Source: Hydractinia symbiolongicarpus (lineage: Eukaryota; Cnidaria; Hydrozoa; Anthoathecata; Hydractiniidae). From it: a stretch of 64,000 bases of DNA. The notes under the pieces are model-generated. The model made no database searches. It was not told the origin of the DNA and was given only the letters and a program-made list of their open reading frames with translations. The translations under genes were made by a program, and so were the position numbers. This document shows positions 40,083-59,060 of the stretch, piece by piece. The stretch is from the NCBI RefSeq assembly GCF_029227915.1, contig NC_079880.1, forward strand, positions 9,203,501-9,267,500, read 5' to 3'. The stretch's first letter is position 1; each line of letters opens with the position of its first letter.

Positions 40083-40573
40083 GTGAGTTTTGTATTATTA
40101 TTAGCCATATTGTACTGAAAGTTTACTTAGGAATTGTTAATTTATTTTTTAAAAGTGGATCTTTAATGCGTGTAGAGTGGGTATGCCCATATACAGTCAG
40201 GGATAACCGCAAATTAGGCTATCACGCCAAATTAGGCTAGTAGCTTAGTTAGGAGATTTTTCATAGACTATTTAGGCGAGTATCTCCTATTTAGGCGATT
40301 TGCTATCTTCTTTGTTAAATATAACGGAAACGACGTATAGTCGCGCCATGTTTTTTTGGCTATCCAGTGGCCTGTCAAGTCGTCTTTGGTCAAGTAAAAT
40401 TTCATGTAATTTGCTTCGCGGAACTAAAAATTATAGGCCAAAAGACTTTCTATCTGCTAATTAGGCTATGCTAGACTAATTAAGCTATGATATCTTATCA
40501 GAAGGTTATTTCGCGCCAATATAAGGTTTTCTGTACCAGCGCAACTTTCTTATTTGTTCAACGAAGCTAAAAC

Positions 40574-41125
40574 ATGGCCAACTTAAATAATGCTGAAAGT
40601 AGGATGTATGTAGATAGCTACTGCGAATTTCGTACTCGCCAAGATTGGTACAGCGAAGAAAATGAAGCATTTTTCATAACGTTTTGTGTAGTTAACGGGT
40701 TTCACTTTTTTTAAGTTAGGCCTCTTGTTGGCATGGAAATGCCAATGATGCTAGTACGAGAGCCTTCTAACGAATATGATACAAATGCTATCAAAGTTGT
40801 TGTGCCTCCTATACATGAACTCAATCCAGAAATCTTAGACATTGTTGTAAGGCAGCGCACAGGGGATACAGTCAGAAGGATAGCTGGATGAACTGTTGGA
40901 AGAGTTCCTCGAGTGGTTGCGGGAATATTAGCAAGTCGTTTTGATTCTGGACAAATTCGCAGGGGCACATGTTTTTTTACAGGTAGCATGCAGCATGGGA
41001 ATCACCCAACACTGCGAAGTGGCCCTAAGCTAGAATGTATGTACTGTTTTGAAGCTGACACTCAAAATACAATACGAGACGTCATATCTGATTTACAGGG
41101 ACAAACACATGTGACAACATTGTAA
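40574..41125 (+). pseudogene. E1 ORF1: HIRAN-domain protein with two in-frame stops
   Basis: From the ATG at 40574 one frame runs to 41125 except for a TAA at 40712 and a TGA at 40889. The translation shows the HIRAN signature: a hydrophobic first strand (FFITFCVVNGF), VGMEMPMMLVREPSNEYD, NAIKVVV, and later VGRVPRVVAGILASRFD. HIRAN domains bind 3' ends of single-stranded DNA in HLTF/Rad5-type proteins (established knowledge). Here the domain is almost alone (about 180 residues), without helicase or RING. As part of a transposon it might recognise cleaved ends, which is inference. The two stops show this copy is dead. Confidence 0.7.
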
Positions 41126-41252
41126 ATTTTTTTTTTGGTGTATATATATCTATTGTTTTATTATATTTGCTATTTACATTAGAAACAACTAATAAATATG
41201 GCTGAAATTTTTGATGACAACTTAAATCTTGTTAAATTAAAAAATATAGTTA

Positions 41253-44200
41253 GATGAGGTAATCGTTACGCACTTTTTAAATAATCATGAACTACGGTCG
41301 CTGTTCTAATCGTTACGCAGTTCTTTTGTTTTATTCATGCAAAATTAGTTTCTTGTAACATATTCACCAAATATGAGGACCATATGGAAGCGCTATCATG
41401 CACTTTTTCACATAAAACAATGCGTAATGATTAGATCGAAAAAACTCTAATCATTACGCATTTTTTTATATTTTTTACGCAGGTGCGTAATGATTATAAC
41501 ACCCTGCGCAATTAATAAAATAGTTTGTTACGCACCTAAGATCTAATGGTTACGCACGCTATTTACGTAGCAGTGTAGTCTGGATTAGTCTATTTGTGCC
41601 TTTTTTATCTTTTTGAATATTAGAACTACAACCGTCAATAATTTCAAAGAGGTGCAATGGAAATAACTAATAAAATATAACAGGGAATTGAAACAATACA
41701 ACGTGTAGTGTGGCGAAAATGACCTTGAAACTTCGGCTTTTATTTTAAACAGGGAAAATACCGGCAGTTATACAACAACTACATTTCATTTAAATCACTC
41801 TCCCATTTGCATCTTTCCGAAACATGCATTGCGTCTCTGTTCTTCTTTTTTATCCTTTCGAACAATTCTCGAACTTGAGGATACTGTGGGAACTCCCATT
41901 TGTCACCACCCAAAAAAGTTGCAGTTAATGGCCCACAGATAACATTTTGGACAGCGAAGGTGTCGATATCTTCCCCTACAGCTGTTCCAAACTCGCTTGT
42001 TTTTTTTATTTCCCGAAGGATGTTGTCAGCTGTCCCCAACTTTTTTTGCAGACATTCTATCTCTAATCCTGCAGCAACACCGTTTTCATCATACAAAAAA
42101 CGCGTGAGGGCTTTTCCTATGTACAAACTAGGACCTCTCTTGGTGTCGTAAATGCATGTGTACCATTTACCAACCACATCGCATTCTTTTGTTGGCGAAT
42201 TTAAAAACTTCCACGTTTTTTCCATTGACAACAGTGTATCTGTTGATTCATCCTGGACAACGTCCTCTTCGCTTTCCTCTCTTTCTCCTTCCTCTTCTTC
42301 CTCTTCTTCATCTTCTTCTTCGCTCGAGGTAATCTCATCGGTATCGCTGTCGTCTTCCTTGTTTATTGTAATTTTCTGCTTTCCCTTTTTGCTCGCAATT
42401 GCAATTTGTTGTTTCTTCCTTTCTCTTTCTTCTTTTCTTAGCAACGCCTTTGCTTCCCTTTCTTCTCTCTCTCGGGCTTTTCGTTCAAGCTCTTCGAGCA
42501 GCTCTTTCTGCGTAATAACCTACAACATGGACAATCAATTAGTTATTTTTAATGTGAAATGCAAAATCATTAATGTACTTATTCTTAAATAATATTTTAC
42601 CTTTCCGCGAAGATCTAACTTTTGTCTTCTTTTCTTAGGCTGATCTACTGAACCTTTTACTTTATCGAGGAACAGCTCTTCAAATACCTCAGTCGATTTT
42701 GGGGTGGACTGGTTAATTGGTGACAACTTCCAACCATTTGGAATCCAGCAGAAGCCTGTAGGTGCTGTATATGGATATGGTCCAAGCAAACTCAGACTTT
42801 GTCAATTGGCTTTTAGCACCATGTGTTGTCACGCGTAAATGGAGGCGCTTCTCCCAAGCACGTTTTAAGGGTCCAAAACATGCAACATCTAGGGGTTGCA
42901 TGACATCCGTAACATGTGGAGGGAATTTCATTATAATTATATCGTCTTCCAATGCTTTTTTAATGACAGATATGCTGATATGGGTAAGGTGCCCATCAAA
43001 CACCAGTAACAATGGTCTTTCTGTTACGTCCTTAGTGAATTTGGCGAACCACATGGAAAAAACTTCCGTGTCCATCCAACCGTTTTCAGACTTGGCGTAA
43101 AACGTGTTGAGTAGAGCCTTGTTCCCGTACCACGTACTTTGCATATTTTTTCCAGTGAATATAATAAGAGGGTCAAGTGCCACTCCAGCTGCATTACAAA
43201 CACCGAGTACAGTGATGTTTTCTCTCCCAGCGCCATACCGTAATTTAAGGGCACGCTGTCCCTTCACTGAGACAACTTTCCCTTTTGATGGATCAGTTGG
43301 GAAAGAACTTTCGTCACAGTTCCAGATCCGTTGTGCATCCAGATTAGGGTATTTCTCGAAGATCTAAAAATATCATTTTACTATACATCTTGCACGGTCA
43401 AATTATAAACGCTGTTTTCTAGAAAAGCGTACCGTCAATGACGCATATATTACCTGTTCCAATTGATCGTAGAAATCAAAAATTATAAATGGATTGGATG
43501 TGTTTGCTTTACGGGCAGTACTAATCATCTCAGCCTTCTTGTGACTCAGTCCATTTCTTTTCATAAAGCTCTTTATCCACACCAAACCAGGCCTTCCATT
43601 TTTAAACTGGAGTGAAATCGTCCCTGTGACTTTAATGTATTCGGCAACAAGATCCTAAATAATAAATTAAATGATGATACAAATATAAATAGTGACAGAA
43701 TTTCCAACATTCAGTTTTAAACCCTTACAAAAACAGCTTTTAGCTTACCAAAATTTCATCCAACGTAGGACTAAAACCAAGGTTACATACAACACCAATG
43801 CACTTAGCTAGCCGGGCCTCCGTTTCTGCATCGAAAACACATTTCCGCCCAAACTTTCCTAATTTGGCTCCTTCCTTGCGTTTTTTTAAACGAAATCGCA
43901 GCGTAGAATCGTTGATACCATGACGTTTTGTTATGCCTCTGACTGATGCATTCGGCATAGAATCGAACTCTTGAAGCGCTTCCTGGAGGTGCACTTCTGT
44001 CCACGCGTCCACAACTTTCTTAGCAACTTTTCTGCTACCCTGCTTTTTTCTTCGACCACTCTTTGATACACGTTTTTTTGTTTTCATTGTTAAGCCGTCT
44101 AGACAAACTATAAACACGATAAAACACAGTATACATTCCCAAAAATACTCACTGTGGTCTCTCATCCAAGAATATGGTAAAACAAGTGTTTAGAAATTAA

Positions 44201-44863
44201 AAACAAACATAGCAAAACAAAAAATTCTACCTTCTCCCAGTACGAATTGATCTGCAAAAGAGTTTGTTACTAGAATCTTGTCTTGTTAAGGAATTATTGA
44301 CCAATTGGCGCCAAAGACCTTCACAAAATACCATAAAAGGAATGTTTACCCCTTCCAGGCAATTATAACAAGGCATAAAGTTCTTAGCTAAAGACGTTAA
44401 ACAAGATTTCTAGTAGTCTCTCTAACTTTGCTTTGTGCGTAATGATAATATTATGCCCAATGATTTCTTGATTTAATCATTGCGCATCGTTTTTTTGCCC
44501 CGGGCGTGATTTTTACATAAAAAGGCCTCCAAGAATCAATGGACGAGGTTCGGGTCTGTAATTTAGCACAGTTTTTTACCAGTGGACCGTGCTAACAAAA
44601 ATGGTAGAGGAAAGTTAGTGAAGTGATTCGGAAAGTTGATATTGGACTTTTTTGGAGTGGTGTTGGAAACATCAAGATTTCTCTGGAAGAGTCGTCGTAT
44701 GGAATAATTTAATTGGTTAATATAGCGGAGGAATCATTTCAGTTAGTTTTTTCATTCTTTAATTTTATTTTAAACCTTGTTTTAGTTGCGAAATTAACAA
44801 ACTTAAAAATGCGTAATGAATATAAATGCGTAATGAATATAAATGCGTAACGATTACCTCATC
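41253..44863. mobile_element. pogo/Tigger-like element nested in E1
   Basis: The terminal inverted repeats start gatgaggtaatcgttacgca, perfect over at least 20 bp, with TA on the left (41251-41252) and TG on the right (44864-44865). This is read as a TA duplication with one substitution. Many copies of gcgtaatgatta or its complement lie within the first 310 bp and the last 420 bp, a likely transposase-binding array. The 3.6 kb hold one four-exon DDE transposase on the minus strand. Insertion into the E1 PHD ORF makes it younger than E1. Confidence 0.82.
41779..44087 (-). pseudogene. pogo/Tigger-like DDE transposase, 4 exons, one frameshift
   Basis: Exons in transcript order are 43749-44087, 43454-43654, 42601-43363 and 41779-42519. 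Exon 1 holds a basic start and a Psq/CENP-B-type helix-turn-helix (LQEFDSMPNASVRGITKRHG). Exons 2 and 3 hold the DDE_1 core: WNCDESSF (first Asp), LLLVFDGHLTH (second Asp), then FPPHVTDVMQPLDVACFGPLKR with the third Asp region. Exon 4 is a Glu/Asp-rich coiled tail and a C-terminal domain (GKWYTCIYD, FLYDENGVAAG) shared with the copy at 57 kb. Exon 3 has a net one-base shift near 42797, where the frame jumps from KSEF to LGPYPY. Comparison with the 57-59 kb copy (ADFVEKLG) indicates a loss of 8 bp. Otherwise the gene is open. Confidence 0.78.
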
Positions 44864-45660
44864 TGACTATACAAACAAAAGTAAAGTTTGTGAGCCTGGA
44901 AGCAGTCCCACTAAAAAAAGGTGCCGAGGAAAGGAATTCATGAAAAATTCAGCTGCCAGAAGCGACTGTCGCTATAAAAGAAGAAATGGAATTTTAAATA
45001 GTGTTTCATTATTAAAACTGTGCACAGGAGATGATGTCATGATTCAATTCCTGCATGGCACTACAAAAGAGAAAAAGGTTTTTGGAACATGTCAAGGTAT
45101 GCTTCTTGAGCAGTACTTAAATAAAAATACTGACACTTGCAATGGCCCGATGACCTCGACTGCTCTCCAGGGTCACGTAACAACATTGTCCGACCAGAGC
45201 ATGTTGTCATTACAACCCTCGACTCCACAACACACCTTGCAAAATTTAGATGCTGCACTCAATGCGTTGACACCCTCTGCACCAATTGAAACAGCATCAA
45301 CCGATATTGACGAAAACACTTGTCAATTATGTCGAGCCAAGCACGACACAGAGGACGATTTAGACTCAGCTTGGATTGGTTGCAGTGCAAGAGGGTGCAA
45401 GTATTGGGTGCATGCTCTATGCTTAGGTTTTACCTGTAAAAAGGTAGAAAACTTTGGGAATTTTTGGTGTCTGACACACATAAAAAGACATGTTACTTCG
45501 ACCAGAAGAAAATTAAAACACTAACACTCTACAAAAATTTTTTTAAAAAAACTTTATTTTGTTAACTTATTTTGTTCGATAATCAGATTATTTTGTTGCT
45601 TGTATAGTCGTTTTATTTAAATGTGTGCATATATTATTTTTTTAGGATAGTTATATATAT

Positions 45661-48492
45661 TTATAATAGTTCATCATCACTATATTCATCAACGTCCTTT
45701 TCTGCATAGGTCTGTAAAAGTTCATAATTAATTTTTGAAAGCTTTAAGCCGTTTTGATGTTGCCGCCAATATTCCAATCGTTTTTCTCGCAATCTTTCTG
45801 ATAAAATGATAAGGCTATCACTCATCGGTTCACCAAAGATGTTAAATATTTGACTGCTTTCTGTTTTATCTAAAAACTTGGAATGTCGTAAAAATGCTCT
45901 CCATTCAGTAATTTCTTCACTTAAAAGTATGTTTCTAGATCTTGGGTCATCCTTTAGGCTTAGCAAGTTAGAAACATTGTCATAAATTTTGTCAAAAGTA
46001 TCAACACATCTTGATATACGTTGCCAAGTAGCCTTATCAACATTTCCTTTAGGAGCCATCATTTTTTGACGTTTGATTTTTTGCTCCATTAGAAAATCTC
46101 CACCTTGATTTCGGCCATGACATTCGTTTATTGAAAATGTGAGATTTTCTTCTCTTTGTTTTCGCACTTGAGGAGGGTAAATAGCTTTATTAAGCAAATC
46201 ACGGTACTCAATTTCACGATAAAACGGATGATTAAAACCGAATTACCAATCTGCAAAAGCGTATCTACCTGCAAAAGCGTATCTACCTGCATCACTTATG
46301 CTGATATCATTATTGCGGTCACCAACTCTTTGTGTATAAATGCCCAAACCAAATGTAGTAATCAACTGTAACATAAGCTTGAGTGTTGGGCAACTAACTT
46401 TGTGTTGCCATTCCATAAAACCCATGGCACTAATGTTGCCCTTTTCTTCTTCTGCATATTTGTTAATAAGTTCTAACATTGTACCATGCAAAAAAACTTC
46501 AAAGGCTTCCCATGCCTTGTGATTATCTGTACAATCTTTAAAGTAGGTATACGCTTTTGGAGAGTTAAAATTTAACACATCACGGCCAAGTGGTTCCAAA
46601 CATATTTGGTCCAATATCTTAAAGAAACCTTTCACCTAACATGTAAATATATTTTATTTATTATTACGATAAACAGCATAAGTTTGATTACATTTTTAAA
46701 CATTGCTTTTTTATATTTATTATTCATGAAGTATACTGTAAATATTTTTTAAAACAGAAAGTATTTTATATTGAAAGATTGTTATGTTACACATTTTTTT
46801 TTTATTTGTTTGTTTTAGTTCAGTCCCCTTTTGCATAAAAATGTATTTGTATACCTGATTCATATTTAAATGTCCCAAGCCAGGAAGTAAAAGTAATCCA
46901 ATCATAATCTTCTTTGTTATCATCAATAAGCCTGCTAGCAAGTACATAAGGTGGTCCATCACATCCAACGTATCCATCACATCCAACGTATGTCCAGAAT
47001 CTACTTTTAGATACAGCAAGGTTTTCTTTAAGTTGACTAAGAATTGATTTAATGTTGTCATAACTGTTGGGGTTTAATAATATTGGCTCTCCAACTTGAA
47101 TTGATGGTTTATTACAAGCACTTTTTTGACCAAGATTTAAATACTTGTTACCAACTGAAGTTGTTTGACAAGATTTCTGTTGTTCCTCATTGACTTTCTT
47201 AACTGCTGACCCACACGCATCACAAACACGCTTGCAATTCTTATATGCCTTCCCACAATCCTAATAAATATAAATGAAAATCAGAAAAATACACTGATGA
47301 ATACTGTATTATAACAAGTAAAAAAAAACTTACCGTAATTGTACACTGGCGCTTTTGAAGTAAAATAAGGTCTGAAATTCTTTTAGTGATTTCATTTGTT
47401 TCATTTTTGTACTGTTCAATCATTTGGCTAATGTAGTTGAAACGAACTTTTCTGAAAACTTTGCGTGAACTTTGAAGGATTTCATCCATTTTTCCTTGGA
47501 TTTCCCCAAGTGTTTTTTCGGTACTCCAGTAGCATGGTTTTAACGATTCAATGGTTTGAATATTGCCCATTAAACTTATATACAGCGTTGATGTGATAAT
47601 ATCAGCCAAAGCTGATTTCGTCTTCGAAATACGGTAGTTGCGAATTATGTATTTTCCAATATTGTCAATGTAGGTTTCTATGTCTCCGCTTGGACATTCC
47701 AACTTATTTCTACCAATTTCCTTTAGCCAATTTAAATATGAAGAATAACTGCCAGCTGGATAAATCTTACCATTAATAGTTGTTACTATTTTAGATCCAG
47801 AAATACACGACTTTACCAGATTTGAAACAAATGAATGTGGAAATATCCAATTTAAATTTGCCAAGTAGTATATGTTTTCGATCAGGGTAGCCAAATAGAA
47901 AATTATACCAGAATTATGTTCATTTTTAATGTACCGACCTGAAATTCCTTCCACAAACGAAACTAGAATATTTTCTCTCTGAAGTATAAATTCCATTGGA
48001 TTGTGTTTGCAAATAAGATGCATCTTTGTATTTTGTACTTAAATATTCTCCATCTTTTTGTATTTTATACAAAAGAACTCTTTTCCCAAGATAAAAAAAT
48101 AACTGTGACCATTTTGAATCTGGTACATGGTCAGTTAAAACTTTGGATTTTAACAAATATGCTATAAATGTGTCAGTCTCCAAGCTATCACATGACAACC
48201 CATGCTCTCTTTGTCCTTTAGTTTCAACATCTTCAGGTTTTGGTTTCATAAGGTATTCTGCCATATTAATGCATGCTTTACAAAGATAGCTTGATCTTTC
48301 GGATAAATAATTGTGTGATTTCAAGTAATTAACAACTGTTTGCTTCACTTTGGATCTTTCAATATGACAAACTGATTTACTTTCATCTTGAGAAAGAATA
48401 ATCCAAACATCATGATCACTACACTTGCAGCCGGCCTTTGGCGCAGCCATATTGAAAAGGGCCGTGAAATTCAAAAATTTGAAAATAGACAA
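45661..48492 (-). pseudogene. E1 large multi-exon protein (GCDG family), candidate transposase, damaged
   Basis: Read from 48452 (MAAPKAGC) or 48492, the exons are about 47334-48452, 46855-47261 and 45661-46635. The N-terminal part has paired cysteines (SSYLCKACINMAEYL). The middle reads NPMEFILQRENILVSFVEGISG, then a CKRVCDACGSA zinc-knuckle-like motif, GCDGPPYVLASRLIDD and PGLGHLNMNQ. The C-terminal part has QGGDFLMEQ and ends in an acidic tail (DVDEYSDDELL). I recognise this as a large cnidarian multi-copy family (possibly the DUF6589 type, weak memory) but not as a known transposase. Damage comprises frameshifts near 48005 and 46890, a TAA at 46243-46245, and two in-frame 18-bp tandem duplications (46956-46991 and 46251-46286). 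Confidence 0.6.
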
Positions 48493-48950
48493 ATTAAGCT
48501 ATTTTCCAGAAGCAACCGTGGCCGTAAAACAAAGAAGCCGTAACAGCGCATGCGTTCTTAATCAAAACAAACTTAACGCTATATCTTCTGACAGCGCAAA
48601 TAATAAAGAAAAATATATTTGGACCACCAAAAGGAGGTTCTATAGAATGTTTTTAGCTAATAAAATCATTGCGACTATGTAACAGAACAGCAATAGGCAG
48701 CAAAAACCATGTTAATAGCCTAATTAGGAGAGATAAATCGCCTAAAAAGGCTATCGTAGACTAATTAGACTATCATACAGCCCTCGAAATAATTTTTGGA
48801 GACTCGTCAGACAAAATGTCCGCCACATTTCCAGTTTGGTCGGACATGTCCGTAGCCCGTTTTAAACTTTCGTCGGACAAAACGTCCGATAGATTTCAGT
48901 CTTGGTCGGACACTTCCATTTGTTTAGATCTCGGAATTATTGAATAGTTC

Positions 48951-51900
48951 CAGGCACTAATCTAGAAATTGGAGGCAGCGTACCTATGCTTACAAAAAGG
49001 GCAGTGGAAAAAATGGCCCCCACCATGGTTGGGGGCCAAAAAAAATTTGGGGTTTGTGAACGCTCTAGAATGGCTAATATAGCATTTCCCAGGCTTATTT
49101 TGATAACATTCAACCAAGTTGTTTCTTCTCATCAGTACTTGTTTCCATTAGTATTCATTTAGAAACACAAAGCACAAGCCCAACTACATCACAACCATCA
49201 ACGATAGTCGACGAAACAGTCACGCCGACTACGCCGTTGCCGGTACCATTATGAACGAACGAAGAAACAATGATTGCGTGATTAGCAAAATACTGACCAC
49301 AGTCCCTTTCTTAAATTGTACTCAAATTACAACAAAGTATATTATGCATAAATCTTTCTCGGCGAAAAAGTATTGTTCTATATCATTCCGAAACTTTAGC
49401 TTATTTTCACAGAGACTTTGTTAACAATTTTTTTCGTTGAGAAAGATACTATATTTCCGATGAAAATATGCGTCTGTTACGATTTGTTTTCCAAATCTGT
49501 AAAACTCTGTCGACTTCCCTATTGGATAGAGGATTTGTTGCATGCGAGATGCGCATCAAGGCATCTAAACTTTTTTGGTCGAGATTGGTCCGTTTGTCGT
49601 TCATGATGAGCTTCATACGAGAAAAACCACGTTCCACCACAGCCTCTGATTGAGGCACAAGAGCATATAGACGAAGCAGAGTTCGAACATTCGGGAAGGC
49701 AGAAGAAACAACGCTATCACGCAAGAGATCGATTGCTGTTAAAGGTGATCGTTTCTTGTCGACAATACTTTTTAAGTCATCCTGGATTGCCTTAATCTCC
49801 CGTTTTGTCTTCCGCTTGTCAGCTTCAGCGTTGAGGAGTTTGGCTTTAGCGCTCTTTTCTTCACAGGATAATTCGGCCCTCAATGCAATCTTACGAGTTG
49901 TGACATAATTTTTATAACCCGCGTATTCCATTTGAAGAGACTCGTTTGTGCAATCAATGATAGGATTGCTTAACACTGTTCGGCCTTGATAGGTATCTTT
50001 AGCAGAGTTGCCGTAAAAATCAAACGCCACTTTTAAGGAATCGTTGCCATAATTTGAAAATGTTACGTCAGTCGATTCTGGTATACCAACAGGATCAAAA
50101 ACTAATAAAGATTCCACGGGTGCCATGCAGGACATATCGAATGCTGCTTCCATCTCTCCTGAAAATTTCGAAAATTCAATTCAAAAGATTTCCAGGTCAT
50201 AGAGTCAAAGCGTTATGGGTCAAATCAATTTTGTTCCCAGAGAGCCCCTTTTAGTTATGAAACAACGTTGTTACGACATTATTATAAAATATGCTATTGA
50301 TGGCCACAATTTCTATTTGAATACTACCCTTAGGAAAAATGAAAACAAACCTATAAATCCTGTGATGAATGGACTACCGTATTTCTCATGGAATTCTTCA
50401 GCATTGATAGAATAGTCGACTTTCAATCTTTTGCGAGTTCCGCGTGAAGCAACATTCTGTTTCGTGAACGATTCAACTTGCGTGAGAATTTCTTTGTGTG
50501 AATTAAAGCTTTTCAAATAAATGCTATTTTTATTCGACGCCATATCTCTCAAAATAGAAATTGTGGTAGCCATAACACGTCGTACTGCACCAAAATCTTT
50601 ATGATCAGATTGTAAAACCATTGAAAGACCATTGATTACAGATAACACATCTTCGAGAAACGTTATCTGGAGAACTGTGTTCACATTCAAAAGCTCAGAT
50701 CGATATCCTATCAATTCGGGCTTGGGATTTCGAGTAACAATATCGTCAAGGGCCGAAATGATCATCCCATATCTCTCTCTACAGCGTTTGCAAGCAGCGC
50801 CATGAGAGAGCCATCGCGTAACAGCAGCTTTTATGACATTCAGAGCCTTCAACCCGTACGCCTCTTGAATTTCTCTCAGGATGTATCGATTCTTGCTGCT
50901 GAAATGGAAAGTTTTCCACAGACCTAAAAGCAACGCATCGATTGTTTTGAGCCATGGGAAATCGTCCATCAAGTGCTTAAAACACAAAGCGAGACGATGG
51001 CAGCGACAGTTGACATAAATTGCATGAGGTGCATAGTTTCTTATCCTCCGTTGGAGACCATTATGTTCTCCTGACATGGAGTTAGTTCCGTCGAGACACG
51101 AAAATCTCGTCTTTTTAATGTCAATGTCCCTGTCTTTCATTACAGTTACCACAGCGTTCATAACGATTTCCGACTGGGTTGACGATACCTCGACTAAGGA
51201 AATAAAGTCCATAAATAGATCTTGTTTGTCTTCGTCGTATGAGCTTATGAAAATCCCAAGCATTTCTCTCCTTGCAGCATTAGAGGACTCGTCCGCAAAC
51301 AATACTAAGTCAACAGATTTTTGGATCCTCTCGTCAGTTTGTTTCCATAAATACTCGTCCAATGCAGTGAGTAATCCGTCGCATGTCTCATGAGAAGTGT
51401 ATTGGGCATTCTTAGCGCAGTTACGGAGATACTGTTTTATGATAGGCTCCTCCATTTCGTTTGCAAGGAAGTCAATCATCTTAGGATATAACGCCTTGAC
51501 TGGAAGATTGTTTCTTGCAAGAAAATGCACAATGCGAATCAATTTTCCTACATACAAGGAATTAGCTTCCCGTCGGTCTGCTACTGAAACTTGTGGGGCA
51601 TTACCCAAGGTATCGGTGATACGGAGATTTGTCATAGCATTGACAGCTCTGATGTGCCTACTTGCCTTCGAATGGCGTTTCAGTTTTTTTCCAGCATTTT
51701 CATTGAAATGGACTCCTTTGTGTGACCATGCCCCTCGATCACCCCCACTTGGACAGGCCGTAGTAGCGTAATACACATCGCAAATTTTACACATATATCC
51801 ATGTATAGCTTGGTTGTAGTAAAGCCAAGGATATATGTTTTCGTATTTACTTTGATCGTAAAGACGGTGATCTATGTGAGGCCGTTGTTCGTTTTCAGTT

Positions 51901-52829
51901 GGAGCAGGAACAGGGTCGTTTAAAACTTCATCTTCATCTTCGTCTGATTTATCCGTAACACTGTCCTCCTCGCTACATGTTTTTTCTAATACTTCTTCAT
52001 CGGAAGAGTCCTCCGTGATCAATTCACTGAGAGAAATGAAAAGAAAACATAATGAGCGCTAGATTATACGATTTGTAAAAATCAAGAAAAACAAACAGAT
52101 ACCTATTCTCGACAAGACTTGACGATTGTGAATTAGAAGCTTCATCTTGTTTATAGCTAAAACATTGCGCAATAGTTTTTGAGCCTTTAGCAGCCTTTAA
52201 CTTCTCTATGTTTTTTTTCTTTTCTAATCTTTTTTTCGTTGGCATTTTGAACCCGAACTGTGAACTTCACGAAATTCAACTTCTTTGGATAAATAATCTG
52301 GAAATCTTCTTTAAGTCGATTATGTAATTACGTAACATAATAAGACATTAATAAATTATTATTTCATTGTTTCAAAACAATTGAAAAGAATTCGAAACAC
52401 ATGGTGTTCAATTCGTGTTTTTGTTTAAAAAATCGAAAATATGTGTTGTGCACATGTGTTGGTAATAAAACCAAAATAAAACAAACAATTTTAGATAGCG
52501 TGGAAGTATATTTAGTGTGAATGACCTACGGAAACAACACGAAATGTAAACATGGCAGCGCACACGAGTTTCTTCGCGAAGATAAGTATATGTTACGTGA
52601 AGATTGTTGACGCTGTGGTATATTTTCCTTTAGGGCACCGTGAGTGAAAAAAGGGCACTTTATATCAGAAAAAGGGCACTGAATCTTGGGATTTATTGCT
52701 TCTGTATCGCCCCACCCCTGGCCAGACCTCGTTTTTGAGGTTTTCAAAGAAAAATAAAATTTCTGATTTTTTTTCTCTATAGGGCAGCGTCCGAATACCG
52801 GACGCTCTTTTGCTCTAGATTAGTGCCTG
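48951..52829. mobile_element. Intact-looking hAT element nested in E3
   Basis: The terminal inverted repeats are 16 bp and perfect (caggcactaatctaga), flanked by a 5-bp duplication agttc (48946-48950 and 52830-52834). A 5-bp TSD fits the hAT subgroup described as hAT5. The 3,879 bp contain a three-exon transposase with no visible lesion. It is the innermost and therefore the youngest insertion on this arm of the nest. Confidence 0.85.
49449..52245 (-). CDS. hAT transposase, 3 exons, 842 aa, apparently intact
   Basis: Exons in transcript order are 52103-52245, 50351-52026 and 49449-50158. All borders are GT/AG and the joined length is 2,529 nt with no internal stop. Order: a Lys-rich N-terminus that may carry nuclear localisation, an acidic linker, a TTF-type zinc finger (YMCKICDVYY...H), the RNase H-like core with LFADESSN (catalytic Asp region), CLDGTNSM with the second Asp, and CRCHRLALCFKHL (the hAT CxxH motif). 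The all-alpha insertion follows, and the C-terminal dimerisation block contains VPQSEAVVERGFSRMKL, the classic hAT signature. It should catalyse cut-and-paste of the surrounding element. Intact TIRs, TSD and frame suggest recent activity. Confidence 0.85.
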
Positions 52830-52835
52830 AGTTCT

Positions 52836-53744
52836 AGTCCTTTTAATCCACGAGCAAGCCTATTCATAGCCAACCTGACCATCCTAGCTAATTCACCAAC
52901 TCCTGACTTAGTTAAAAGAACTACGTAGACATGAATCTCTATTGCCTGGCCCCTTCGTCGTTGGTAACCAGGTCTTACACAAGAAATCCAGCCATGCGGT
53001 TCTTAACTAATGCGGAGGTGAACGCCGACGGAGCACGGATGAAGCAAGTCTGCAAAATTGCACTTACAGGCGGAACAGACGTTAAATTGTAGATAATTTT
53101 GTGTTCTTTTCTTTTTATATTTTGAAAAAGCCTTTTCTGTTTTGGGTGCCAACAACGAAGATGTTGCTGTACTTTGGCAATGTTTTGATCCGGGACTGAT
53201 AGTCGTACAAAATTTACAGCGCATGTTCTTAACCTTGCCATCTTTTATATCATAAAGCAGCCGTTCAGCAACGCTGTGTTGTGCCAGCTCAGCTTTCCAC
53301 TTCTCAACAGTAGCAGGTGTTACGGTTCTTGTTGATGTTGTTTGCTTGTGTTGTTTCGGATTTGTTTTGCCTTTGGTCTGCGGTGTAGTCTGCAAAATAA
53401 ACAATTAAGAAAAATTAAAGAGACACAAAAGATATTGTGAAAATTAAAGTACTAAATATAACAGAGTGAAGAATTACTATATTCGTTGCTGATTGCTTCG
53501 CTAATGTTGGTGGGTTTTTTCCAAAGGCTGAAAATATGCTTCTTTGGATTTTCTTCGGCTGCTTATTAATAACAACAGAACAATCAGGACATCTACCAAC
53601 ACGTTTTTCCTCTTCGCTGTACCTATTGACTGTACTGTTAACACCGGTAGAACATATGTTACAAGATGTTTTTTGACACGATATACACCGATACTTCGTG
53701 CTTCTTTCGCAAAAACAACAAGGCAAATCATTAATTTCACTCAT
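52836..53744 (-). pseudogene. E3 zinc-finger protein, 3' end disrupted by hAT insertion
   Basis: Exon 1 (53478-53744) starts MSEINDLPCCFCE and codes for a B-box-like cysteine pattern (CCFC, CISC, CNIC, then CPDC). Exon 2 (53003-53389) begins TTPQTKG and contains VEKWKAELAQHSVAERLLYD followed by MRCKFCT. That recalls the N-terminal region of some hAT-related proteins with zinc fingers. The two exons join in phase 0. The frame stops at 53003. Readable protein continues in another frame to the insertion point of the inner hAT, so the original gene ran on and was cut. No RNase H core is present. Confidence 0.5.
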
Positions 53745-54636
53745 ACTTGAAGGAGCAACTAACTTACATGCGATAAATGTGAAATAAACACTTTTTCATT
53801 TCTTATAAAAGCGCAAGCAACCGGCGTTCTTTTACCAGTTCGAATGATCTCACTCAGAGATGTTTTATATTAAAATGAATTAAATAATTTTTTAAGACGA
53901 TGGAGTGTTGCAGGTAAAGGAAAATTTTTTTCTTCGTTTGACAAAACAATTCGAAACCATAGCAGGTCCCATTTAATTGATTTTTTCTTAATGCTGCAAG
54001 TGCTATTTCTATTCAAACAATTTTAAAAACGAAACCCACGTGCGGTATAATATTTTGTTTTGTATAAATTTTGTTAAAAATTTAAGCCACGTGGATAAAC
54101 TTAAAACATTTTTTTTTTAATTTGAAAACGAAGCATATTTTTTCCTATTTGCTTGTGATGACTTTACAAATAATTATAAAAATACAAACTTAAAAACTAT
54201 TTTGTTTATATGTTTTAGAGTATTCTTTAGCGACGGCATTTTTTGCGATTTAATTGGCTTATCCAAATGCGCAGCCTTACTTTGTTTTTTAACGGCGCCT
54301 AACCACATTTATTATTTGTGGTGTGTGTGATCATGATTAAGAAACTTCCATGATGGCACATGGCAGATGAAAACAAAACGAAAGTGAAGCGGAACGAAGA
54401 TTGATTAAAAGAGACAGATTATATTTAAATTATCTCGTTATTTTTGCATGTTTCAATTTTTATTTTTTGCAGTTATAATAGGGGAGATGTAGCTAGAGAA
54501 ACGTGCCGGACAAAATGACAGGCCAGAACTGATTTTCGTCGGACATATTTGCGTCTGGGTCGGACAATGTCCGATGTCCGACCGCTATTTCGAGGGCTGA
54601 TCATAGCCTAATTTGCGGTTATCCCTGACTGATATA

Positions 54637-55237: not shown

Positions 55238-56403
55238 TCATTTTTTCGCACAAACAAGATGCGACCAGCAATGACATATGTCACAGTCGATCCAACTCAC
55301 TAACTTGCTTCTGCTAGGAGGATCTTCATCATTACAAATGACACAAACATCGTCGCTAGGTTTTACTTTGTTTGCGTTAGCACCAGGCGACTTTGTCTCC
55401 AATGACGGTTTATTAAACCATCCCTCAAAACGTGTAGCTTTTTTCCAATGTCCTGACGTGGTTTGGGAGGACTGTTGCTTTATTATTAGTAGTATTATTA
55501 CTACAATCCACAACTTCATTCGTCATGGAATACTCAATGTTGAAATTCACATTATTTGCATTCGCAAAAATTAATTTAATTAAGGTAGTGAAGCAGGAAG
55601 ATCTTGACCGTTTAAAAAGGAATGATATGAGAATGGTTAGGTGGATGTGTAACGCCAGTCTGAGAGACAGAAAGAGTTCAGATGAGCTAAGAAGCAGGCT
55701 CCGTAGAATTAAAGATGTTGTCCAGATAAGAAGATTGAACTGGCTGGGGCACTTGAAAAGAATGGAGGAGGATAATTGGGTAAGAAAGTGTAGAGACTTA
55801 ATAGTTCCTGGGGCAAAGCCCAGAGGCAGACCGAGAAAGACTTGGCAGGAGGTTATAAAGACAGCCTTGATACAGAGGAAGTTAAGTTTACATCTAACAC
55901 CGTCTAGATCAGATTGGAAGAGGGTCATTAATATACCCCGTCCAACCTATGCTACCATGGAAAACGGACGTTAAGCCGAGAATGATGATGATGATGATGA
56001 TAACTGGAGTCGTCATCTCTGATTTCTATAACAGATGATGTCGTTTTGCTGATGTATCTTCTTGGATTGTTAGTTTTCTTTTGATGAAAGTTCTTTCTAA
56101 ACCGTTTGCTTAGGGTCAACAGCTACCTGGAACATTGGCTTTTGGGCACCACATACCTGGAAGGAAATCAATAAGAACATTAAATTTTCATTAAATCATA
56201 CACGCTAATAACACCTACACTTTTCAATAAGAAAATTTAAATATAAGACATTTTAGATTTGCCACATACCGCAGTTTTGCCTTCGTCTTGGCAAGTTTCG
56301 CTGACAGGTAAACTGTTTTGTGCCTTCTCAACAACGACTTCATGGATTGAAGGTCAGGGTCATTTGAACCGCAGTGAACACACACACATAACGTTTTAGG
56401 CAT
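55238..56403 (-). pseudogene. Remnant of a cysteine-rich, PHD-like transposon gene, split by a LINE
   Basis: At the 5' end a short frame starting at 56403 reads MPKTLCVCVHCGSNDPD with a possible donor near 56268. After a possible acceptor at 56157 come a basic piece (RFRKNFHQKKTNNPRRYISK) and then the LINE insertion. Beyond the LINE, 55238-55460 encodes a PHD-like end: CVICNDEDPP, then WIDCDICHCWSHLVC. The pieces lie in different frames. The similarity of the last part to PHD fingers in transposon proteins, such as the one in E1, suggests another transposon relic. The parent family is not identified. Confidence 0.4.
55584..56003 (+). mobile_element. 5'-truncated LINE, RT C-terminal end with GAT tail
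   Basis: The plus-strand frame reads LKRNDMRMVRWMCNASLRD, then RLNWLGHLKRMEEDNWV and GAKPRGRPRKTWQEV, ending at a stop at 55974. This is the well-known C-terminal end of non-LTR retrotransposon RT proteins (RRxxRWxGHxxRM ... GRPxxTW). A (GAT)n-type simple tail follows at about 55983-56001. Only the last 130 or so codons are present, the usual result of incomplete target-primed reverse transcription. The frame is uninterrupted, so the insertion may be fairly young. Confidence 0.8.
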
Positions 56404-56999: not shown

Positions 57000-59060
57000 C
57001 GTTTGGATAACCTCGCTCTGGATACACCTCCAAAGGACCAGCTATTACATTGTGGACCTCAAAAAGTGAAATGTCCTGCATGGTTCCTGTATACGACTCT
57101 AATATTGTACCGCTCCCAACATGTGGCTTCAGACAGTCAAATTCAATACCACATGCTGGACCATCTGCATCTAAAAGGAATCGAGTGGTGGCTTTTCCAA
57201 TGTAAAGAGAAGCGGCTGGCGTTCTTTTCTTTACATTTGCTGACTCGGGTTAAAAGATGAGAGCAAACCATTTCCCAACAATCTCTTCCTCCTGAGTTGG
57301 TGGTGATAACCACTTCCGTAATTTAACAAGTCTTGCTTCGTTTTCTTCCTTGTCAGCATAATCTTCTTCCTTATCTGTATCTTCCTCCTCGTCCTCAACT
57401 ATCTCCTCATCTGTTACAGATTCTATGTCACTATCCTCTTTATCCTTTATCTTTATCCCACCAACTTTCGCAAGTTATCATTGGTGGACATCACTTTTGT
57501 TTTCCAATCAACTTTTCGGAGAACTGGCTGTGTCTTCTCAACTGGACCCTTAGTTGAAGATATCAGCTTTTCTTCAATTGTTGACGGAGGATCATCCAGT
57601 ACCCATTTGGGCACCCAAACCTTTCCAGGGTAGGGCAAAGGCTTAGGTCCAATTAACTTTGATACTTCGCAACAGTGATTATCAAATGCAGGAAGTATTG
57701 GCGTCGATTGATTGGTGCTTGCAGTTGAAGGAGCGTCATTAATGGATGCTGAAGGAGCGTCAGTAAAGGATGCTGAAGAAGCATTAGCAAGAAATGGCGC
57801 TTGTGTGATGTTGAATGATTGCGTTGGCGTTATCACGGTATTTACATTTGTTTGCTCTTTTATTTTTTTGGCTTATTTGGAGCACGAGCAAGTTCTTCCA
57901 TAACGTCCTCTGCTTTTCCCATTTCGCACCATCTTCTATATCTTTTAAGTAACCATGGGTCAAATCTTTTCTCCGGGTACTTCGTTCTGTCGATCAGAAA
58001 TATACCTAGATTAAAAACAAATTGAATGTACTTTTCCACATTTCACAAGAGGAGAAGTAGTTTCACTTAATGACGTTTTCATAAAATAAATATATATTAT
58101 TTATACCTGTTCATCAAAATCCTGCTTTTATGTTATCTTCAGTAAGTGCGGTTTGTCAACACTGTCCAAGTTTCTCCACAAAGTCAGCTTTTCGAAGAGG
58201 ACGCTTACCACTATAAGAAACACACCATTCATTTAAGACACGTTCCCATTCTCTCTTCAGGGGACCAAAACATGTTACATCTAACGGTTGTAGAAGATCT
58301 GTCACATGCGGTGGAAATTTCATGATTGTCACATCTTCCTCCATGGCTTTTAAGATAAGGCTGGCAGACACATGCGACAAATGGCCGTCAAAGAGAAGCA
58401 AAAGTGACCGATCTGTTACTACTCTGCAAAAGTGTTTAAACATTATTTCGTCGCTATTACCCTTTCAAGCACATCATAAATGTTACACACTATAAGAGGT
58501 CCGATGTGTTTCGGACTCAGGACGTACAAATCATCTAAGCATTTCATAATGTTAAATGATTGCGTTTTAACAAATTTCTTAGCCAATTTTGGCCAGGTTT
58601 CCCATCCAACTGCGTATCAATAGAAATTCGTTTGGCAAATTGTTCGACCAAACTCTATGTCAGGCAATAATTGGGATAACTGTGTTTTTGACTTAATTAG
58701 ACTATATAATGTTAGCAAACCGAATAACCAACACTCACTTCTATTTCCCAAAACGACTGACTGAATCCATTGTTACATAACACTCTGATGCATTTAGCGA
58801 GGTTTTCTTTCGTCTCTACATCAAAAGTGCACTTTCGTTCCGAGTTCGCCAACTCCTCTCCCTTTTTTTTAAACTTGTTCAAGCGAAAGTGCAGGGTACA
58901 TTCGCCTAATTTATATTTTTTAGCTACTGTCCTGACAGACACGTTAGGGACTAACTGCAGCTTATGCAAAGCAGCTTGCAATGTTTCCTCTGACAACGCA
59001 TTTTCAATTATTTTTGAACTTTTCTCATACCTGGATGCTTCACAGAGCTCATTTTAGCAA
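57000..59060 (-). pseudogene. Second pogo/Tigger-like transposase copy, broken
   Basis: The order matches the pogo-like gene at 41.8-44.1 kb. 58712-58996 codes for the helix-turn-helix (LQLVPNVSVRTVAKKYKLG). 58156-58443 codes for the core (LLLLFDGHLSH and FPPHVTDLLQPLDVTCFGPLKR) and ends KADFVEKLG. 57453-57660 codes for the segment PGKVWVPKWVLDD. 57005-57260 codes for the C-terminal domain (SLYIGKATTRFLLDADG). The stretch 58445-58690, which should hold the WNCDES region, is degraded, and stops separate the pieces. It is a diverged relative of the nested copy, not a recent duplicate. Its terminal repeats were not found. Confidence 0.7.

Follow-up and report, generated by a model that had tools for sequence, protein, structure and literature searches.

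What kind of transposon carries a HIRAN gene, a PHD-finger gene and a third, large gene, and which of the three would move it? The question is posed by E1, an element in a 64,000-nucleotide stretch of the Hydractinia symbiolongicarpus genome (NCBI RefSeq assembly GCF_029227915.1, contig NC_079880.1, positions 9,203,501 to 9,267,500 of the forward strand), hereafter the window, to which positions refer unless another locus is named. An initial annotation, made from the letters of the window, had found no recognisable DDE transposase in E1 and saw in it an undescribed transposition system. We find that the large protein, which bears a GCDG motif, is most likely the E1 transposase, judging from conserved residues and a predicted fold. 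Moreover, we consider it very probable that E1, taken as a whole and with the putative helper roles included, is a DNA transposon of the cut-and-paste kind, to which all three genes belong.

The gene for the large protein is present as annotated, at 45661-48450 on the reverse strand. It is divided into three exons by putative introns at ~47261-47333 and ~46636-46854, and contains the motifs IDNIGKY, GCDGPPY, PGLGHLNMN and GGDFLME; its frame is broken in the window copy. Three candidate catalytic residues are kept in the relatives that cover each position, D298 in 20/20, D511 in 16/17 and E727 in 9/9, and four conserved cysteines lie in the long stretch between the first and second D. The annotation had suggested looking for an RNase H fold in an AlphaFold model of this protein. 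The model is RNase H-like and its best matches are DDE enzymes (the P element, Hermes, RAG1 and retroviral integrases), though Foldseek by itself gave no significant match. Residue conservation and the matches of the predicted model thus point to a D/D/E triad on an RNase H fold, contrary to the annotation. Its further suggestion that the multi-copy family of large proteins is transposase-derived is upheld by the same two observations, together with the finding that family members lie inside terminal inverted repeats (TIRs) with 5-bp duplications. The best Pfam match of the transposase is DUF6589 (PF20231, E=0.0012), which stays below the curated cut-off and covers the part of the protein where the proposed catalytic E lies; among 23 family members DUF6589 was matched in two (best E=0.0024) and a Pfam transposase domain in none. 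A sequence search against solved structures and a search of NCBIfam returned nothing relevant, and no prokaryotic or viral relative was confirmed in one scan each of viral contigs and genome contigs with two peptide patterns each.

The pairing of inverted repeats shows that E1 spans 40194-54631. The perfect 29-bp TIRs (CAGTCAGGGATAACCGCAAATTAGGCTAT) described initially are found at 40194-40222 (forward) and 54603-54631 (reverse), and are flanked by the expected 5-bp duplication, ATATA, at 40189-40193 and 54632-54636. The interval first given, 40194-48771, does not hold: no inverted repeat at 48771 matches the left one, and this right end was rejected in favour of the true partner at 54603-54631. 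A hAT-type element (48778-54599) separates the body of E1 from its own right end. Across E1 copies and two further elements, L058 and one on contig C5, the termini read CAGTCAGGGA or CAGTTAGGGA, starting with CAGT.

To identify further copies, the genome (481 Mb, 76 contigs) was searched with the left 207 bp of E1. At least 41 matches were found, a lower bound since 40 of 182 candidates were scored. Twenty matched places were retrieved, giving 21 copies with the window. Four (L011, L023, L024 and L026) were left uncounted for want of a clean right end; of these, L026 has decayed and retains remnants of HIRAN and PHD. Both ends are present in the other 17, and 15 of these have an exact 5-bp duplication; as six share one flank (AGAAA), these represent 10 independent duplications. 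The two without are L014, whose AGAAA-group flank has one base changed, and L028. Inverted repeats with a target duplication of fixed length are the hallmark of cut-and-paste elements, and L058 and the C5 element likewise have 5 bp. Only the window copy and L016 are coding among the 17. L016, on contig C2, is 4876 bp long and has the same three genes and no nested insertions; its transposase frame is broken. The remaining 15 are internal deletion derivatives of 597-641 bp that keep both ends. Neither of the observations that the annotation had named as fatal to it was made: the gene-less copies examined are these derivatives rather than E1 ends around another known transposase, and members of the large family reside inside inverted repeats with 5-bp duplications rather than as host genes without TIRs. 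We note that six derivatives at different places (L009, L012, L013, L015, L017 and L018; also L014, with one change) have the same flanks and the AGAAA duplication. They are therefore probably carried inside a larger duplicated unit. We also note an 18-bp exact tandem duplication at the GCDG motif of the window copy (46955-46990), reading GCDGYVGCDG, which L016 lacks.

Besides E1, two diverged lineages with coding copies are present in the genome, and their duplications are likewise 5 bp long. The L058 element is 5028 bp long, with 46-bp inverted repeats (43 matching) and an AATTA duplication. The frames of its three genes are all open, with that of the transposase divided into three pieces that would be joined by splicing. 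The C5 element, whose middle was read in part, is 5855 bp long, with ends beginning CAGTCAGGGAAA (44/45 matching) and a CAAAT duplication. At L059 an 826-aa transposase lies in one frame, with a PHD gene measuring 345 codons from stop to stop. The L059 HIRAN gene (L059:5534-5863) is upstream of the transposase and on its strand, not before the PHD gene, and thus HIRAN placement and strand differ between lineages. The left end of the L059 element was not found; the right end is at L059:6270.

The HIRAN gene of E1 (40574-41125, forward strand) matches PF08797 above the cut-off (E=4.3e-8), as does that of L058 (E=7.4e-9), whilst that of L059 falls below it (E=0.016). The window copy has two in-frame stops; the frame is open in L016 and L058. 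The PHD gene, also on the forward strand, starts at 41198-41246, is interrupted by a nested pogo-type element and resumes at 44872-45524. Its assignment stands as PHD-like, with PF00628 scores below the Pfam cut-off in the window (E=0.0056), L058 (0.00044) and L059 (0.0011). The finger, at ~45320-45485, has the spacing C-x2-C-x16-C-x4-C-x4-H-x2-C-...-C-x2-H in the window and L058 proteins, similar in L059, which fits PHD. The first half of the protein contains the stretch R-x-DCRYKRR-x-GI-...-LKL-x-T, invariant across four aligned proteins; the L016 protein is one residue off. A four-protein profile against the PDB recovered MADS-box MCM1 (E=0.0044) and SRF (0.032 and 0.042), other matches being mostly PHD proteins, and the top three matches of a two-protein profile were MADS entries. 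The Pfam SRF-TF match is below cut-off (E=0.24), and an AlphaFold model of the protein was uninformative. We call this region (~44900-45120) MADS-like, a tentative assignment. A further PHD-like Cys/His-rich open reading frame (ORF) lies just beyond E1 at 55238-55522, with no Pfam match at E<=0.01.

Do the three genes belong together? Recurrent linkage indicates that they do, as the annotation had proposed. Linkage was counted from matches to the PHD protein: 29 matches at 21 loci, some of which are near-identical to one another (three on C13, two on C1). A transposase lies within ~1.5 kb at 12 of the 21, convergent with the PHD gene in 12/12, HIRAN lies within ~1.5 kb at 14, and both do so at 6. 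Within ~5 kb, HIRAN is found at 18/21 loci, which adds the window, C14:4.18M, C5 and C7:18.79M, and is not seen at C10, C11 and C2:24.99M. At nine loci the short flanks lack a transposase, and C11 has neither partner. Two local arrangements were also observed: three similar pairs of HIRAN and PHD genes ~24-30 kb apart at C13:21.82-21.88 Mb, and a much diverged set of all three genes ~13 kb from L016 (C2:18.016-18.017 Mb).

Between lineages, amino-acid-changing differences (pN) are much rarer than silent ones (pS) in all three genes. For L016 against L058, pN and pS are 0.19 and 0.69 in HIRAN and 0.28 and 0.75 in PHD; for the window against L058, they are 0.16 and 0.69 in the C-terminal part of the transposase, with silent distances near saturation in these L058 comparisons. 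The window and L016 show very few differences, with pN/pS ratios of 1.40 (HIRAN) and 1.06 (PHD), as would be expected of copies in decay after insertion.

From its anatomy, E1 would move as classical DDE elements do, by cut and paste and with a transposase of the insertion-domain type. The transposase would cut at the CAGT(C/T)AGGGA ends, and insertion would proceed via a staggered cut of 5 bp, the observed length of the duplications. PHD fingers read histone marks; the MADS-like/PHD protein would bind the element ends or nearby repeats and tether the complex to chromatin. The HIRAN domain of HLTF binds 3' ends and, by analogy, the E1 HIRAN protein might bind 3' ends left free while the element is excised or the gap is repaired, the weakest step of the proposal. 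The window copy itself is dead, because the transposase and HIRAN frames are broken, the PHD gene is split and two transposons have been inserted.

Both of these insertions are foreign to E1. The pogo-type element (41247-44869) has a TA duplication and a DDE_1 match (E=5.6e-22), and the hAT-type element has a 6-bp ATCATA duplication and a Dimer_Tnp_hAT match (E=3.8e-6). Both insertion sites are empty in L016, and therefore neither element was accepted as the engine of E1. Within the interval first annotated, DDE_1 and a TA duplication belong only to the nested pogo-type element, so that E1 itself shows no sign of pogo/Tc1-mariner membership. The hAT-type element looks complete, with CAGCCCTCGAAATA ends and a transposase region of two ORFs, in which a DUF4371 match below cut-off accompanies the hAT dimerisation match; it also contains Cys-rich ORFs (53003-53795) with no Pfam match above cut-off. 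The pogo-type element has many internal TGCGTAATGATTA-like repeats in both orientations, and a further fragment of a pogo-type transposase (DDE_1, E=1.7e-10) lies at 58156-58464.

The alternative that survives best makes E1 a distant branch of the P/hAT/MuDR/Kolobok/Dada assemblage, which we regard as unlikely although a serious contender. The P element and the hAT transposase Hermes, the best matches of the E1 transposase model, may share with it an RNase H core with a helical insertion between the second D and E. However, there is no detectable sequence similarity to them, and no hAT or P-element domain was found in the 23 family members with Pfam at E<=0.1, whereas the nested hAT-type element does match. 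The [C/D]xxH signature of the assemblage occurs between the second D and E in 2/9 aligned rows, at different positions; the other seven lack it, the nearest feature being a conserved CxDxH. E1 also has the four-cysteine stretch and two helper genes. Lastly, the 5-bp duplication of E1 departs from the usual lengths, which are 8 bp for P and hAT. A duplication of 7 bp has, however, been reported for hAT (PMC12730594).

It is rather improbable that only the large protein matters, and that the HIRAN and MADS-like/PHD genes are host-derived passengers. TET/JBP genes have been passively moved between transposon superfamilies in fungi (PMC12730594), and the variable place and strand of HIRAN would suit such a history. 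Against this, lineages that share as little as ~30% amino-acid identity still have the genes together, and pN is far below pS in both helpers. Membership of Transib/RAG, as a divergent lineage, is very unlikely. RAG-like transposons have convergent RAG1L and RAG2L genes, a PHD in RAG2L and 5-bp duplications (PMC7204232). E1 resembles them in its duplications and in the convergent order of its transposase and PHD genes, and RAG1 is among the structural matches. Yet E1 ends begin CAGT rather than CAC, and C(2)C or H(3-4)H is absent between the second D and E in 8/9 rows covering both residues, the ninth (P0004) having one CxxC and one HxxxH. No kelch repeats, as in RAG2L, were among the Pfam matches of four PHD proteins, and the P element and Hermes outscore RAG1 and Transib structurally. 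That the large family consists of host genes, with repeats from an unrelated element, would fit a multi-copy family lacking a Pfam transposase match and is dismissed as extremely improbable, given that three lineages have coding copies enclosed by inverted repeats and 5-bp duplications, and that short derivatives retain both ends.

How, then, does E1 compare with known systems? Published counts of known superfamilies are 20 with a DDD/E transposase (PMC9587614), 23 (PMC10045372) and 24 (PMC12730594). E1 could represent a superfamily missing from such lists, or else an outlying branch on the P/hAT side. The initial view of an undescribed system is thus retained as regards an unplaced transposon with unusual helper genes, but not as regards its chemistry: the D/D/E triad and RNase H-like model argue for a novel lineage that uses an established mechanism. 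No published description of the three-gene set was among the matches listed in our literature search, outside which lay most subscription papers and Repbase. Ginger1 comprises DNA transposons of Hydra, one family of which, Ginger1-9_HM, is listed with a PHD finger; there, however, the transposase itself carries the PHD, at its C-terminus next to Ulp1, and has an integrase-type core, and HIRAN has no occurrence in the text (PMC2836005). Kyakuja-Dileera-Zisupton (KDZ) elements with TET/JBP genes also combine a transposase with a chromatin-related second gene, but have 8-bp duplications in Zisupton and one Dileera family (PMC12730594), as against 5 bp in E1. No KDZ-type match was listed for the 23 family members, in a library whose inclusion of a KDZ model is unconfirmed. 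The weak DUF6589 match hints at kinship with that family, to which Pfam assigns no function and which no paper in the literature searched names. The reading of the large protein as a transposase offers a likely function for a family of unassigned proteins, and the DNA transposons gain a lineage equipped with unusual helper genes.

In organisation E1 has a parallel in RAG-like transposons (ProtoRAG, RAG1L-RAG2L) and Transib, from which it differs further by its extra HIRAN gene and the MADS-like region on the PHD protein. We tentatively suggest, as a quite possible reading, that E1 represents a superfamily-level DDE lineage with a three-part complex encoded by the element: the transposase, a MADS-like/PHD protein recognising the ends and reading histone marks, and a HIRAN protein holding free 3' ends. 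This idea is directly testable, given a copy with all three frames open in one genome. The pairing of a DDE enzyme with a convergent PHD partner and a 5-bp duplication would then parallel RAG1/RAG2 whilst having an independent origin, and would bear on the origin of RAG-like two-protein recombinases.

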